From Pseudomonadota bacterium (GTDB lineage: Bacteria; Pseudomonadota; Gammaproteobacteria; UBA5335), in NCBI GenBank assembly GCA_034189865.1, contig JAXHTV010000014.1:1-64000 (forward strand): 64,000 bases of DNA, read 5' to 3'. Of this stretch, positions 40,554 through 48,375 are shown one piece after another (position 1 is the first letter of the stretch; every line of letters starts with the position of its first letter). The notes beneath the pieces were generated by a model, which saw nothing but the letters and a program-made list of their open reading frames with translations, was not told the origin of the DNA and searched no databases. Both the position numbers and the translations under genes were made by a program.

Positions 40554-40664
40554 CCCGCGATAGATTCAGTGATGCTGCCCCGTCTTGTGGCTCCGTCTGA
40601 GGTGGCTGTTGGGTCTGGCAGGCGTTTTATCATGGGTTTTTTCGTTTTTTCCACGGGCGTCGTT

Positions 40665-40695
40665 TCAGAATGTGACCCGTCGAGTCACATTCTGA
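40665..40695. repeat. Perfect 12-bp inverted repeat
   Basis: TCAGAATGTGAC (40665-40676) and GTCACATTCTGA (40684-40695) flank a 7-nt loop. It lies 112 nt after the hydrolase stop. No T-tract follows, so it is a possible terminator, or an operator for the next gene. Confidence 0.55.
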
Positions 40696-40806
40696 CCGAA
40701 GGAGTTGACCGGCAGCGTCAACTTATCGTCGGCTCCCTGCTGTTTCCCCTCTCGATGTGTATTTCCCAGTCAGTAAAAACAGATGCTTAGGTCGTTATTT
40801 TTGCGG

Positions 40807-40822
40807 TGGCATATTTCCTGCT
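40807..40822 (+). promoter_or_regulatory. Sigma-54-like promoter
   Basis: TGGCATATTTCCTGCT fits the -24/-12 form TGGCAC-N5-TTGCA with the GG and GC dinucleotides at the required 10-nt spacing and two mismatches outside them. The start would fall near 40833, six nt before the stem-loop at 40839. Confidence 0.4.
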
Positions 40823-40838
40823 TCAGTTTGGCCGGGTT

Positions 40839-40887
40839 GAATACAGCGACCACCCAAGCGATCTGACTCAATCGCGGTGCTGTATTC
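40839..40887 (+). ncRNA. Long structured leader (stem-loop) before the small secreted protein gene
   Basis: The right arm ATCGCGGTGCTGTATTC (40871-40887) is continuous and pairs with GAATACAGC (40839-40847), ACC and GCGAT (40858-40862) on the left, leaving a single-nt and a six-nt bulge. It would form the 5' end of the transcript if the sigma-54-like promoter is real. It may control mRNA stability or translation of the gene starting 70 nt on. No known riboswitch family is recognised. Confidence 0.45.
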
Positions 40888-40956
40888 CCGTGACTCAACC
40901 TAAATCGTGTTCCTAAATACTACTGACACATAGACTGTACACGGAGATTATTTGAA

Positions 40957-41337
40957 ATGAAGAAACTGATGAAGACTGCTGCCATGGGCGCCGCTGTTGC
41001 TTTACTGCCCCTGAGCGCGCAGGCCGAATTGGCCCCGATGAGCAATGCCGAATTGAGCGCCATCCATGGCCAGGGATACACTATTACTGTCGGCGCCGTT
41101 GATTACGCCGTACCTTTTGCCTTTGAAGTGTTTTCTGCAAAGGCCGATCCGGCTGTTCTTAGTGCGGTGGCCGGTTTGGTTAGTGGTTATGCGCCGGGTC
41201 TTCCCAGCGGTGTGGATTCCAAGCGTTCGGCCGCGGTCGGCATCGTCAACTCCAAGCTGGCTGACGTGGTTGCGGGCTTGCAGATGATTCCGTACTGGGG
41301 TCCGTTGGTGCCCACCGTATCGGTCGCCATCGACTAA
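40957..41337 (+). CDS. Small secreted protein of unknown function (Gly-Gln-Gly motif)
   Basis: 126 residues. A Sec signal peptide (MKKLMKTAAMGAAVALLPLS, cleaved after AQA) is followed by the short motif LAPMSNAELSAIHGQGYTI and then about 80 residues that are hydrophobic and low in charge. The motif resembles the start of small exported proteins of marine gammaproteobacteria annotated as DUF6160, but I hold this lightly. The last segment (GLQMIPYWGPLVPTVSVAID) may insert into a membrane. It stands alone with its own leader and a strong terminator, and GGAG lies about 13 nt before the ATG. Confidence 0.7.
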   Translation: MKKLMKTAAMGAAVALLPLSAQAELAPMSNAELSAIHGQGYTITVGAVDYAVPFAFEVFSAKADPAVLSAVAGLVSGYAPGLPSGVDSKRSAAVGIVNSKLADVVAGLQMIPYWGPLVPTVSVAID

Positions 41338-41385
41338 AAAAGAACGTCAGGCAATCTGGGCTAAATTCAGAAGCTTGATGGAAGA

Positions 41386-41414
41386 CCTGCCCCGAACGGG
41401 GCAGGCCTTTTTTT
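41386..41414 (+). terminator. Rho-independent terminator
   Basis: CCTGCCCCG (41386-41394) and CGGGGCAGG (41397-41405) form a tight GC-rich hairpin followed by CC and TTTTTTT. It ends the small secreted protein gene and also faces the converging acyl-CoA synthetase gene. Confidence 0.95.
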
Positions 41415-43254: not shown

Positions 43255-44079
43255 CCCTAAGAGTTCCTCAAATTACAGTCGTTAAACAATAACCATCGCG
43301 GGAAAACCATTTTGTCCAAACTGATTCCCCGGAACGTCGGAATCCGCACTGGTGCTATCAGAGTCTTTGCTTTGATTGTTCGGCAATCACCGAATGACTC
43401 AGCAGTGGGCCAGTGTTTGTTCACCGCCTGCTTCATGCCGCAATGCTCGGATCTGGCAGGGCAAGCCGTGACCGAAACGACTCGCTGTGCTCCGAGTGGA
43501 TAGCGCATGGCCCCGGATACGCCGTCCGGTCCAGCAGGCTGGTGATGGTGGCCTAAGGTTCGGGTGGCTTGCACCCATACCACACGGTGGTGCCGATTGA
43601 TGCGACCAAGGGTCGATCGGGCGTATCCGTAGCCCGCTCCTCTGAGGCCAAGGGTTAGGAACGGTCGCTGCAGAAACATACCTGTTGTTGAGCGACCAGT
43701 CAAAGACCAGCAGAATGACGATATCCTTCTCCGGTTGCTCGTTCTTTTCGCCGTGCAGTATCTTTGTCACGGAATTGTCTTAAGATGGTGCGCTAGCTTT
43801 ACCGTTGTCGGGTGGTGCGGGGAAGGCGCCAATTAGGCTTGCAGCTTGATCGGTCGCCGTAGCGACGCCATTGGGGGCTGGACGCAGAGGCAAAGAGCGA
43901 ATGACGCCCGCTCCTTATCAGTTTTGCTGGGGTTTGTGAGTGTATAACGGGGAATCGGTCAACAATCGGGCGGGCGCCGCCGTGCATCAGGCGAAAGGCA
44001 TAGACCAAATGAATACCCATCCCATTCTGCCCGCGCTCGGCCCCGATGATGCCGGCACGTCGAGGAAAACGGCAGGTTG
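43255..44079. other. 825-nt stretch without a convincing gene, between divergent genes
   Basis: It holds the upstream regions of the acyl-CoA synthetase gene and of the gsp operon. Open frames on the minus strand show no domain, poor ribosome sites and proline/arginine/histidine-rich translations. Inverted repeats are present (GGATACGCC near 43515 and GGCGTATCC near 43620; CGACC/GGTCG near 43601), so a structured RNA is possible, but no known RNA family is recognised. TATAAC at 43943-43948 is a candidate -10 for gspC with no good -35. Confidence 0.5.
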
Positions 44080-44868
44080 ATGAAAGCACCCCGTCTGTTG
44101 ATTCGCCGCGCAGGTTTTATCTCACCTTCACTGATTGCGGGCCTGTTGGTCGTCGGGCTGGCGGTTCATGCCTATTTGTTGTACGACGACTACTTGGCTG
44201 CCGACAAGCAGGCCACCGGTACAATTTTCGCCCCCGATTCGCCCGCCCAAAGATCGCCATCCGATATCGATTATGCTGCTCAGATATCAGGCGTGAATCT
44301 CCTCGGTGAACCTCGTGCCGAAGCGGCAACACCGGTGGTCACGCAGGCGCCCGTTACCGATTTGGATTTAACCCTGCAAGGGGTGCTCGCTGGCATGGAG
44401 CCGAACATGGCGATCATCGGCGATCGGGGCAAGCAGCAGGTCTACGCCGAGGGGGAAGAATTGCCCGGTGGGGTGGTGCTGCATTCGGTACAAGAGAACA
44501 AAGTGATTCTTCGTCGGGCGGGTCGACACGAGACATTGCCCATGAGCGAGCCGGAATTGCTGATTGTCCCGGTAGAGGACGCGCCAGAACTGATGCTCAA
44601 TCAAGAAGAAGACTTGTCTTCCATGCTGACCGGACACCTGGAGGTGATCCCGGTCTATGAGGACGATCGATTGGTCGGATATCGGATCGGTCCCCGGAAT
44701 CGAGAGACGCTGGCGGCGGAGCTCGGTATTCCGCCGGAAGAGATGATGAGCGAAGTGATGGAGCTCCCGCTGGAAGAAGGCGATGATATGGACGCCTTGT
44801 TGGAAGTATTGGCGGAGACAGACCCCGAGGTCGCGGCGATGTTGGCGCGGGAAGGATTTGGACGATAA
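44080..44868 (+). CDS. gspC: Type II secretion protein C
   Basis: 262 residues. One N-terminal membrane helix (SLIAGLLVVGLAVHAYLLY), a homology region with LTLQGVLAGMEPNMAIIGDRGKQQVYAEGEELPGG (residues 95-130) that contacts GspD, and a C-terminal PDZ-like part. In the latter the usual GL..GD..T.VNG..L appears as ELGIPPEEMMSEVMELPLEEGD, an acidic, unusual version. GspC joins the inner-membrane platform (L, M) to the secretin. ATG 44080 is chosen over the adjacent TTG; GCAGG precedes it. It opens the gsp operon. Confidence 0.9.
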   Translation: MKAPRLLIRRAGFISPSLIAGLLVVGLAVHAYLLYDDYLAADKQATGTIFAPDSPAQRSPSDIDYAAQISGVNLLGEPRAEAATPVVTQAPVTDLDLTLQGVLAGMEPNMAIIGDRGKQQVYAEGEELPGGVVLHSVQENKVILRRAGRHETLPMSEPELLIVPVEDAPELMLNQEEDLSSMLTGHLEVIPVYEDDRLVGYRIGPRNRETLAAELGIPPEEMMSEVMELPLEEGDDMDALLEVLAETDPEVAAMLAREGFGR

Positions 44869-44884
44869 TGGCAGGGAAAAACAG

Positions 44885-46882
44885 ATGACCAGGGCTTGTA
44901 TCAGATGGTTTATCTGCAGCGTGGCAATTGGACTGAGTCTGGGTAACGCTGTTCACGCAACTGAGCCGGTCACGCTAAATTTGCAGGACGCAGACCTCGA
45001 GGCCGTCATCCAGACGGTGGGCCGGATTACCGGCAAGAATTTTGTGATCGACCCCCGGGTCAAGGGTAAGGCGACCGTTGTTTCGTCGCGCCCCATGTCG
45101 CCGGACGAGGTATATCAGGTATTTCTGTCGGTACTGGAAGTTCACGGCTACGCAGCTGTGGAAGAAGGCAATACCGTCAAGATCGTTCCTGACGTGAATG
45201 CGCGGCAGAGCGCGACACCGGTGGTCTTTGGTCAACAGGCCGCGCCGGCGCGGTACAGCTTGGTAACCCGTGTGATCGCGTTGCGCAATGTGCCGGCGGC
45301 CCAATTGGTTCCGGTTTTGCGGCCGCTGGTGCCACAGAACGGCCATGTCGCAGCTTACCCAGAGACCAACGTGCTGATTATTTCGGATGCAGCGTCCAAC
45401 GTGGAGCGTTTGGTCAACATCGTTCGCAGTGTCGATCAGCCGACCCACAACCAAGCGGAAGTCATTCAACTCGAAGAGGCGTCTGCAGTCGATCTCGTCC
45501 GCGTGCTCAAATCCTTGTCCGGGGATGCTCAGGGTGGGCCGTCTCTGGTCGCGGATGAGCGGACAAACAGTATTATTTTGGGGGGCGATCCGGCAGCGAG
45601 ACTGCGCCTTCGTGCGTTGATTCGTCATCTGGATGCGCCGGTGTCGGATACCGGAGGAACCCACGTGGCATATCTGCGCTTTGCCAAGGCAGAAGAGCTC
45701 GCACCCATCATAGAGACCGTGCTGACGCGCGAAAAGAAACCCAACGCCGGAACCACCCAAACGTCTGAAGGCGTCGCCCGGGTTCAGGCCTATGAGGCCA
45801 CTAACGCCTTGGTCATTTCCGCTTCTCCCGATCAACTGACCATGGCCAAGCGCATCGTTCGGGAACTCGATATCCGTCGCCCTCAGGTGTTGGTGGAGGC
45901 CATCATCGCCGAGGTCGGGGCCGACACTTCCAAGGAATTAGGCTTTCAGTGGTTGGTCAACGATGTGACCGACAACTTCGGTACCATCAGTCTGACCAAT
46001 TTCACCAATGCCGGCATGAGCTTGGCGCAATTGGGTGCTGCCGTGGTGGCCGAAGAGATACCACCGGTGGGTCGGGGACTGAGTCTGGCGCTGGGTGATT
46101 TCGGCGGCGATAACGACTGGGGTGTGCTGGTGCAGGCGCTGGCCGCAGACACCGATACCAATGTGTTGTCCATGCCCAGTTTGCTCACACTGGACAATGA
46201 AGAGGCCGAAATCATCGTCGGACAGAATGTGCCCTTCATCACCGGCCAGTTCACCAACACTGGCGCGGTTGAGGGTGCCAGCAATCCCTTTCAGACCATT
46301 CAGCGGGAAGACATCGGTTTGACGTTGCGGATCACGCCGCAAATCAACGAAGACGCCACTGTGCAGCTCGACGTCGAACAGGAAGTCTCCAGCATCGCGC
46401 CTGATTCCGGCCGAGCCGCCGACCTCATTACCACCAAACGCTCGATCAAAACCAGCGTCCTGGTGGATACCGGAGCGACGATTGTCTTGGGCGGACTGAT
46501 CGACGATAAGCTGAATAAACGGGAGCAGCGCGTTCCGGTTCTCGGCGACGTTCCGGTTCTGGGCGCGTTGTTCCGTTTCCGAGATGCGCAAGTCATCAAA
46601 CGGAATTTGATGGTTTTTCTCCGCCCCAGCATTCTCAGAATTCAAGATGACAACACGGTGGTAACGCGGAGCAAATATCAACAGATTCGGGAGAAACAGC
46701 TGAAAGCCATCGAGACCGACCGGCGGCTGAGAGATACCGGGAAACCGCTGCTGCCGTCGCTCGAACAGTGGGAACAGCAAAACCCGGTGCCACCGCAGAC
46801 ACCGAGCCCGAAAGGCATAGACGACTCCTTCCTCCGGCATGAACCGGCCGGCCATCTGCGGCGGGAAGTGGCAACGGGATGA
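44885..46882 (+). CDS. gspD: Type II secretion secretin
   Basis: 665 residues from ATG 44885. Signal peptide (MTRACIRWFICSVAIGLSLG), N0 domain (VTLNLQDADLEAVIQTVGRI), N1-N3 repeats (residues 100-310) and the secretin core with VGQNVPFITGQFTN and VDTGATIVLGGLIDDK, VPVLGDVPVLGALFRF. It forms the outer-membrane pore through which folded exoproteins leave. The C-terminal tail lacks an obvious S-domain, so a pilotin dependence is unclear. It lies 16 nt after gspC; gspE overlaps its stop. Confidence 0.96.
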   Translation: MTRACIRWFICSVAIGLSLGNAVHATEPVTLNLQDADLEAVIQTVGRITGKNFVIDPRVKGKATVVSSRPMSPDEVYQVFLSVLEVHGYAAVEEGNTVKIVPDVNARQSATPVVFGQQAAPARYSLVTRVIALRNVPAAQLVPVLRPLVPQNGHVAAYPETNVLIISDAASNVERLVNIVRSVDQPTHNQAEVIQLEEASAVDLVRVLKSLSGDAQGGPSLVADERTNSIILGGDPAARLRLRALIRHLDAPVSDTGGTHVAYLRFAKAEELAPIIETVLTREKKPNAGTTQTSEGVARVQAYEATNALVISASPDQLTMAKRIVRELDIRRPQVLVEAIIAEVGADTSKELGFQWLVNDVTDNFGTISLTNFTNAGMSLAQLGAAVVAEEIPPVGRGLSLALGDFGGDNDWGVLVQALAADTDTNVLSMPSLLTLDNEEAEIIVGQNVPFITGQFTNTGAVEGASNPFQTIQREDIGLTLRITPQINEDATVQLDVEQEVSSIAPDSGRAADLITTKRSIKTSVLVDTGATIVLGGLIDDKLNKREQRVPVLGDVPVLGALFRFRDAQVIKRNLMVFLRPSILRIQDDNTVVTRSKYQQIREKQLKAIETDRRLRDTGKPLLPSLEQWEQQNPVPPQTPSPKGIDDSFLRHEPAGHLRREVATG

Positions 46883-48375
46883 GTGCCGTGGAGGCCCCTG
46901 AACAGTCCAAAGTGCTGATTCCGTTTGCCTATGCGCGGCGAAACGGGCTCTTTGTTCGGGAGATATCAGACGGCCATGCCGTTATCTGGCAACGGCCGGA
47001 TGCCGACCTGACCGCGCTGGCGGCGGTGCGCGCTCGCCTAAACCTACCTCTCAGACTGCAGCAGGTGGATTCAGCGGAATTTGAGCGCGAGTTGCAGCAT
47101 GCTTACGAGTCGGATGCCGGGGTGGCCGCGGCCGTAATCGATACCTTGGATCAGTCCGTGGATTTGGCTGATCTGTCGGAGCAGCTGGCCGAACCTGAGG
47201 ATCTCCTCGAGAGCGCTGACGACGCCCCGATCATTCGTCTTATCAACGCCATCCTGACCGAAGCCGTCAAGGAAGGGGCTTCGGATATTCACATCGAATC
47301 ATTCGAAAAGGACATGCGTATCCGCTTTCGGGTCGACGGTGTGCTGCGAGAGGTGCTTCGGCCCAAGGCCGCCCTGGGGCCTTTGCTGGTATCGCGGGTC
47401 AAAGTGATGGGGCGGCTGGACATCGCCGAAAAGCGCCTGCCCCAGGACGGCCGTATTTCGCTTCGGATTGCCGGTCGGCCGGTGGATGTCCGCGTGTCTA
47501 CGCTGCCCTCCGGTCATGGCGAGCGCGTGGTGTTGAGACTGCTGGACAAGCAAGCGGGACGCTTGGATTTGCGCCACATCGGCCTGCGGGACAGCGATCA
47601 GCAACGGCTCGATCGGATCATCCACCGGCCTCATGGAATCGTCCTGGTGACCGGCCCGACCGGGTCCGGTAAAACCACAACACTGTATGCCGCGCTCACC
47701 CGACTCAACGAACTTTCCCGCAACATCATGACGGTGGAAGATCCCATCGAGTATTTTCTCGAGGGCATCAGTCAGACGGCCGTAAACACCAAAGTTGAAA
47801 TGAGTTTTGCCCGGGGACTGCGGGCCATTCTGCGACAAGATCCCGATGTCATCATGGTGGGAGAGATTCGCGATCTGGAAACGGCCCGCATCGCCGTGCA
47901 GGCCAGTTTGACCGGGCACTTGGTGCTCTCGACCCTGCACACCAATACGGCCATCGGCGCGGTGACACGTCTGGTGGACATGGGCGTGGAGCCTTACCTC
48001 ATCGCTTCCAGTGTATTGGCGACCGTCGCGCAGCGTCTGGTGCGGGTGCTCTGTGAAGATTGCAAACAGCCCACTGTCGCGGACGTCGCGGCCTGCGTCG
48101 AACTGGGTGTGGTCAGTGAGTCGCCACCGACCTTGTTTGAACCGCGGGGGTGTCCCCTGTGCAATCACACAGGTTTTCGGGGGCGAACCGGAATATACGA
48201 AGTCATCGAGATCGACGCCGAGTTGCGCGATCTGATTCATGACAACGTATCCGAGCCGCTCTTGGAGCGGGCCGCGAGAGCCCAAACGCCATCGATCCGA
48301 GCCGATGGCATCGAAAAAGTCCTGGCGGGCATCACTTCGTTGGATGAGGTGATGCGAGTCACCCGGCAGGATTGA
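46879..48375 (+). CDS. gspE: Type II secretion ATPase
   Basis: 498 residues. N1E domain at the start, Walker A GPTGSGK at 259-265, Asp box (MTVEDPIEY), Walker B (DPDVIMVGEIRD), His box (GHLVLSTLHTN), and a four-Cys zinc site C392/C395/C425/C428 (CEDC...CPLC) that marks GspE/PilB-type ATPases. It powers pseudopilus assembly from the cytoplasm through GspL. ATG overlaps the gspD stop (ATGA). Confidence 0.97.
   Translation: MSAVEAPEQSKVLIPFAYARRNGLFVREISDGHAVIWQRPDADLTALAAVRARLNLPLRLQQVDSAEFERELQHAYESDAGVAAAVIDTLDQSVDLADLSEQLAEPEDLLESADDAPIIRLINAILTEAVKEGASDIHIESFEKDMRIRFRVDGVLREVLRPKAALGPLLVSRVKVMGRLDIAEKRLPQDGRISLRIAGRPVDVRVSTLPSGHGERVVLRLLDKQAGRLDLRHIGLRDSDQQRLDRIIHRPHGIVLVTGPTGSGKTTTLYAALTRLNELSRNIMTVEDPIEYFLEGISQTAVNTKVEMSFARGLRAILRQDPDVIMVGEIRDLETARIAVQASLTGHLVLSTLHTNTAIGAVTRLVDMGVEPYLIASSVLATVAQRLVRVLCEDCKQPTVADVAACVELGVVSESPPTLFEPRGCPLCNHTGFRGRTGIYEVIEIDAELRDLIHDNVSEPLLERAARAQTPSIRADGIEKVLAGITSLDEVMRVTRQD

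Follow-up and report, generated by a model that had tools for sequence, protein, structure and literature searches.

Introduction

The locus described here resembles several known systems, each in part. One is the control of pilA by PilS, PilR and RpoN, in which PilR is the sigma-54 activator of the pilin gene (PMC6058289); the same article cites reports that surface-exposed proteins of Dichelobacter nodosus are also under PilR control. A second is the removal of double-glycine leaders by C39 peptidases, which are described as recognising L at -12, E at -8, L at -7 and V at -4 (PMC6363468). The Fap functional-amyloid system includes such a peptidase, FapD, which is described as periplasmic, with an essential active-site Cys, and whose activity is required for secretion of FapC; its target is called unclear and alternative recognition is considered possible (PMC5557850), and a further article gives its substrate as undetermined (PMC6173800). 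In the Fap literature, some C39-like domains are said only to bind. The Fil system of Acinetobacter (FilA, FilB and FilC) carries the name "putative pilus system", and FilA of strain Tol 5, whose band had previously been assigned by Edman degradation, has been described as a component of the deduced Fil fimbriae (PMC3498257). Finally, in the Nap island of Neisseria gonorrhoeae, small peptides with a GG motif are reported together with a C39 peptidase and a channel resembling FapF (PMC11798529).

We analysed a gene within a window, i.e., the whole stretch of 64,000 nucleotides that forms positions 1 to 64,000 (forward strand) of contig JAXHTV010000014.1 in the gammaproteobacterial assembly GCA_034189865.1. 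The genome of the window (G000) was compared with five others of the same family (G001 to G005) and with further relatives, including G015 and G018. We favour, as reasonably probable, the reading that the gene product is secreted as a substrate of a Fil/Fap-like pathway and that PilR and sigma-54 couple its expression to the type IV pilus. No report of a link between PilR, DUF6160 proteins and a C39 peptidase was found in the parts of the open-licence literature covered by our search.

The exported protein and its tagged paralogues

The open reading frame at 40957-41337 (plus strand) encodes an exported DUF6160 protein of 126 amino acids (P0001). Its translation begins with a predicted Sec signal peptide (residues 1-23; 40957-41025, plus strand), with cleavage after AQA read by eye. 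This is followed by a 16-residue leader-like tag, ELAPMSNAELSAIHGQ (41026-41073, plus strand), recognised from identity and residue frequencies among paralogues, and then by a variable body of 87 residues (GYTITVG...SVAID; 41074-41334, plus strand). An intrinsic terminator, CCTGCCCCGAACGGGGCAGG with a T-run (41386-41412, plus strand; 8 pairs and a T tail), lies downstream, and the gene has no obvious operon partner. A preliminary description had placed a sigma-54-like box, a hairpin, an exported 126-residue protein with a GQG motif and a terminator at 40554-41414, and all of these features were found.

The same description had guessed that the protein might be DUF6160-like, to be checked by an HMM search. 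This guess was borne out by the Pfam profile PF19657 (DUF6160), whose cut-off of 27 bits was passed with a score of 31.5. The match extends over residues 3-44 and only positions 2-44 of the 96 in the profile, i.e., less than the whole domain. Thus the protein resembles DUF6160 members in its signal peptide and GQ-type N-terminus, but its body is not covered by the profile. Searches of PDB, PHROGs and NCBIfam with the window protein gave nothing useful, FilA (NF050077) did not match at E ≤ 10, and a match to Bacteriocin_IIc was discarded as not significant (E = 2.5). An AlphaFold model made from five sequences was poor (mean pLDDT 50.8).

Among 56 genomes searched, homologues of the window protein were found in the five other family genomes and in G018. 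Orthologues from another genus were 34-41% identical over the whole length; as judged by eye, the orthologues share their neighbourhood (in G005, a hydrolase before and an AMP-ligase after), and G002 carries two copies, G005 three. PF19657 gave 17 matches in G000 at E ≤ 1, ten of them over the cut-off, and the other family genomes held several DUF6160 homologues each. In a sample of the class, matches at E ≤ 1e-4 were confined to 4 of 185 genomes (15 in G002, 11 in G000, 6 in G015 and 1 in G018).

The protein had been thought to be a stand-alone factor. This did not hold, as G000 encodes 17 tagged paralogues, plus a probable C39 peptidase and an outer-membrane partner. The 17 paralogous genes are dispersed over the genome, and what their products share is a signal peptide and a tag of 16 residues with GQ at its end. 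Mean pairwise identity over the tag was 0.472 (0.354 for the 12 positions left free by the search expression), against 0.106, 0.067 and 0.076 in the next three blocks of 16 residues. By BLASTP at E ≤ 0.01, 107 of the 136 pairs matched as full proteins and 8 as bodies, the window body matching that of no other G000 paralogue. To call the bodies unrelated would be too strong, since those eight pairs do match, but "mostly unrelated" holds.

The promoter and its upstream palindromes

Upstream of the gene lies a sigma-54-type box, TGGCATATTTCCTGCT (40807-40822, plus strand; GG at 40808-40809, GC at 40820-40821), which agrees with the consensus at 9 of 12 positions and gives a predicted start at about 40833. 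The window contains 35 boxes scoring at least 9 on its two strands (33 at 9 and 2 at 10), and 5.1% of 200-nt stretches contain one. Because such boxes are common, a score of 9/12 is weak evidence by itself, and the window box on its own is no better than chance.

The strongest feature of the locus, absent from the preliminary description, is a pair of TGAC-N7-GTCA palindromes. The distal putative activator site, TCAGAATGTGAC-N7-GTCACATTCTGA, is an inverted repeat with 12-bp arms at 40665-40695 (no strand assigned), whose TGAC-N7-GTCA core occupies 40673-40687; with a half-site, CTGACC, at 40692-40697, this core forms a composite, TGAC-N7-GTCACA-NN-CTGACC (40673-40697). The proximal putative site, AGTTGAC-N7-GTCAACT, has 7-bp arms and lies at 40703-40723 (likewise without strand). 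The two cores are 33 bp, or about 3 helical turns, apart; they start 134 and 101 bp, and end 119 and 86 bp, upstream of the box. The region has what is expected of a sigma-54-dependent promoter, i.e., GG and GC spaced by N10 near consensus and candidate activator sites about 80-200 bp upstream. A CRP-type reading of the palindrome (TGTGA...TCACA) was rejected because its spacing is N9, not the N6 of CRP sites. NorR and NifA sites also have spacings that differ from that of the palindrome, and neither fits as its identity.

Exact cores in this tandem arrangement, 33 bp apart, were found only twice in the G000 assembly, in the window and at C18:28873; with up to two mismatches there were 5 places in G000 against none for a reversed control, and 12 against 2 in six genomes. 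We also searched for a combined pattern of palindrome and box, defined as TGAC-N7-GTCA with TGGC-N9-GCW 75-105 bp downstream. In G000 this occurred at 5 places, with none in the control, and in the six genomes at 12, with 4 in the control. The G000 places were the window, a DUF6160 paralogue on contig C1, two sites on C18 and one within an open reading frame on C12, the last of which is probably due to chance. Of the other seven, one preceded pilA in G002, two, in G001 and G005, lay upstream of genes for DUF6160 proteins, and the remaining four were chance-like, so that 5 of the 12 places in all appear to be of the chance kind. The exact composite, with its 16 fixed positions, occurred in the six genomes only in the window and upstream of pilA in G002; allowing up to two mismatches gave 14 places, against 6 in the control.

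On contig C18 (locus L070, G000:C18:24000-36500), boxes scoring 11/12 and 10/12 lie at about 4774 and 7332 on the minus strand of the locus, with the same palindromes upstream. By eye, neither promoter is followed by a tagged protein or by a convincing open reading frame with a ribosome site before terminator-like hairpins, and it is possible that they drive PilR-controlled small RNAs of about 350-400 nt. Genes that resemble, by eye, those for an RNA ligase and its partner protein stand beside one of these sites (L070:5005-6851). Near a contig end in locus L073 (G000:C8:1-4000), at about 200-255, there is a further tandem pair of TGAC-N7-GTCA palindromes, 32 bp apart by eye; no sigma-54 box was found nearby.

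A site shared with pilA

In G000, pilA itself has a sigma-54 box that scores 12/12 and a TGAC-N7-GTCA palindrome, and adjoins genes for a PilS-type kinase (6TM_PilS, 66.8 bits against a cut-off of 27) and a response regulator of the sigma-54 activator type. We then surveyed pilA promoters of relatives. Among 56 relatives, 32 genomes gave matches, and 30 loci, one per genome, were used; 6 were excluded for lack of a readable start and 6 for lack of a box scoring at least 9, leaving 18. The palindrome was present 40-200 bp upstream of the box in 12 of these 18 promoters, which came from 11 families. With shorter upstream stretches for some loci the count was 11 of 18, and without G000 and G002, which had suggested the motif, it was 10 of 16. 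Other spacers (0-6 and 8-15) were found in at most one promoter each, reversed and inside-out patterns in none of the 18, and in 300 shuffled promoter sets the mean number of promoters with a palindrome was 0.05 (maximum 1).

Given its established role in activating pilA with sigma-54, PilR is the protein most likely to bind TGAC-N7-GTCA. The window gene has an upstream site in common with pilA, as would a member of the PilR regulon, and is most likely a target of PilR and RpoN, as judged from its promoter sequence. The sigma-54 control suggested earlier thus gains support from the presence of palindrome and box as at pilA, with PilR the likely activator. RpoN-like sequences were recognised by motif match in loci of G001, G002, G004 and G005.

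It might be argued that sigma-54 control is real but that the palindrome binds another protein, there being ten sigma-54 activators in G000. The binding of PilR is a prediction, and the hallmarks of PilR sites described for Pseudomonas (TGT-N11-AGA and GTCT) are not identical to the palindrome. However, an activator other than PilR would have to be reconciled with the palindrome at 12 of 18 pilA promoters, with the known action of PilR on pilA (PMC6058289) and with the PilS-type kinase and sigma-54 response regulator next to pilA in G000, and we regard this alternative as quite improbable. A separate observation concerns locus L048/L111 (G000:C5:104000-113500), where a NifA regulator exceeds its NCBIfam cut-off (703.6 against 528.85 bits), hinting at nitrogen fixation in this organism.

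Control by PilR, if correct, would extend to only some of the family. An exact palindrome was found in 4 of 15 DUF6160 promoters, a set chosen by eye from 41 homologues for the presence of a box (scores 8-12) near the start (26 being dropped), as well as in both C18 promoters. Four of the 11 without an exact palindrome held a partial composite at p ≤ 0.01, a figure to be read with the fact that the composite was derived partly from the same promoters. Among the 17 paralogues in G000, three (including the window gene) have a box scoring at least 9 within 200 nt, and 14 have no box scoring at least 8 within 200 nt upstream.

The 5' leader hairpin

In the predicted transcript, a hairpin spans 40834-40896 (plus strand), and the initial 72 nt fold with a free energy of -23.4 kcal/mol, unusually low in comparison with shuffled sequences (z = -3.33, p = 0.003). 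As a whole, the 132 nt from 40825 to 40956 were not unusual (z = -0.39). In 18 other leaders, z was negative in 14, one folded at p < 0.05 and two more were at 0.053 and 0.060; by eye, none of the 18 had the same stem. The hairpin proposed in the preliminary description is thus real and placed right after the predicted start, but its conservation was not seen. Lack of conservation in related strains had been named in advance as evidence against the proposal as a whole, and that evidence is now partly in hand, the relatives compared belonging to other genera only. A riboswitch or known RNA element was rejected, there being no relevant Rfam match.

The interpretation offered previously, i.e., a stand-alone secreted factor tightly regulated through its 5' stem-loop, draws on this stable hairpin just after the predicted start and on the absence of an obvious operon partner. 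Set against it are the tag common to 17 paralogues, the lack of the stem in other leaders and the negative Rfam result, and we consider it highly improbable.

The tag and a candidate peptidase

Counting back from the last residue of the tag, the 17 paralogues have M or L at -12 (all 17), E (12), D (3) or A (2) at -8, L or M at -7 (all 17), V or I at -4 (16), G at -2 (all 17) and Q (16) or E (1) at -1. The window tag has M, E, L, I and G at -12, -8, -7, -4 and -2. Of these positions, -7, -4, -2 and -1 were fixed by the search expression, which leaves only -12 and -8 as independent; no paralogue was dropped. In the canonical double-glycine motif the last two residues are GG, GA or GS, and GQ is non-canonical. 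The hydrophobic residue at -12, E at -8, L at -7, V or I at -4 and G at -2 that characterise double-glycine leaders all recur in the tag, but in place of G, A or S at -1 it has Q or, once, E. Apart from Q at -1, therefore, the residues of the tag follow the published C39 leader register.

Frames of 261-278 aa gave one strong, stand-alone C39 match per genome in all six members of the family. A weaker second match was present in G000, G001, G002 and G005, passing the cut-off in G001 and G002; C39 domains were also found in 8 of 14 control genomes. The peptidase on contig C19 of G000 scored 61.7 bits against Peptidase_C39 (PF03412; cut-off 22), and the putative catalytic residues C65, H150 and D166 were invariant in all six FilB-like homologues. 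A FilC-like gene adjoined the strong C39 gene in all four genomes tested with NCBIfam profiles (G000, G001, G003 and G005) and, judged by eye, in G002 and G004. The pair in G000 is flanked on one side by a secretin/pilN/pilM block and on the other by three genes for ATPases of the T2SSE family, which by eye are PilT-like. Also by eye, similar ATPase genes follow the pair in G003 and G005, and no pil gene stands beside it in G001.

These genes are like those of Fil in that a FilB-like C39 peptidase adjoins a FilC-like protein, and like those of Fap in that a FapD-like C39 peptidase stands beside a FapF-like outer-membrane protein. However, the scores were below the NCBIfam cut-offs, both for the C19 peptidase (FilB, 211.6 against 475 bits; FapD, 109.9 against 330) and for its outer-membrane partner (FilC, 281 against 630; FapF, 48.9 against 700), and no FilB, FilC, FapD or FapF match reached its cut-off in the four family genomes profiled. 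Unlike in Fil, the tagged genes are scattered, the window protein does not match FilA, and by eye neither FilD nor FilF was seen beside the pair in loci L197, L199, L202 and L203. Unlike in Fap, inspection by eye revealed no amyloid-type subunits next to the pair, and the proposed substrates carry a recognisable leader, which Fap proteins are said to lack. The Nap peptides differ in being encoded in one island, whereas the tagged genes are dispersed here, a few of them with the pilA site.

In G015 (L179 and L180), a fil-like cluster holds several DUF6160 genes beside FilB-, FilC-, FilD- and FilF-like genes, all below NCBIfam cut-offs. A profile of the tag gave E values of 0.15-1.8 with the FilA-like DUF6160 proteins of this cluster, and of 0.005 and 0.007 with two proteins on another G015 contig. 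FapE of the fap-like cluster in G018 was not found by the profile at E ≤ 10; a likeness to the tag, seen by eye only, was not retained.

These data also bear on whether the tag is cut at all. The gene could be under PilR and sigma-54 control and the GQ tag could yet stay uncleaved in the mature protein as a structural or sorting motif, serving, for example, in docking to a periplasmic or outer-membrane partner. GQ is, after all, not a canonical C39 site, and FapE of G018 has no detectable tag; moreover, the target of FapD is given as unclear, and some C39-like domains as only binding, in the Fap literature (PMC5557850, PMC6173800). But conservation ends abruptly at GQ, the register equals that of C39 leaders, and all six FilB-like homologues retain Cys, His and Asp at the putative catalytic positions. 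An uncut tag thus seems unlikely to us.

A proposed two-leader route

The favoured reading, in which the window protein is a processed substrate made under pilus control, can be set out in steps. Phosphorylated PilR would bind the two TGAC-N7-GTCA sites and activate sigma-54 polymerase at 40807-40822, as at pilA; it is this step that the promoter sequence supports. As is established for such signals, the protein would then be exported by the Sec pathway and signal peptidase would remove residues 1-23. The leader register, gene content and homology suggest that the C39 peptidase encoded on contig C19, presumed periplasmic, would recognise the 16 residues of the new N-terminus and that this FilB/FapD-like enzyme would cut after GQ, freeing the 87-residue body. 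The body might then reach the surface via the adjacent FilC/FapF-like outer-membrane protein. Most of the 17 paralogues have differing bodies, so a single machine would handle many products, of which PilR would control only a part. By analogy with Fil and Fap, our best guess is that the window protein is a surface component, of a fibre or for adhesion, produced at the same time as pili. The window gene resembles pilA in having the same palindrome and sigma-54 box, but differs in that the target is a DUF6160 secreted protein.

More generally, and with rather more hesitation, we propose that stand-alone periplasmic C39 peptidases of the FilB/FapD class read a leader exposed by signal peptidase, i.e., one with a hydrophobic residue at -12, E at -8, L at -7, V or I at -4 and GQ at -2/-1. 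One filB-filC module (pil-adjacent in G000) would serve about 17 dispersed substrates with mostly unrelated bodies, of which a PilR-controlled subset would be made together with pilin, in a two-leader route coupled to the pilus. What the 17 paralogues share is chiefly a signal peptide and a leader of the C39 type, and their occurrence in genomes with FilB/FapD-like genes offers a concrete, testable motif for such peptidases. The site in common with pilA would tie DUF6160 secreted proteins to pilus control, and TGAC-N7-GTCA is a simple signature by which further targets of PilR may be sought.

Two minor observations may be added. In G015 (L179/L180) there is a second cluster, of long DUF6160-tagged proteins. 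In the window itself, three consecutive open reading frames at 44077-48375 resemble, by eye, the type II secretion genes gspC, gspD and gspE.
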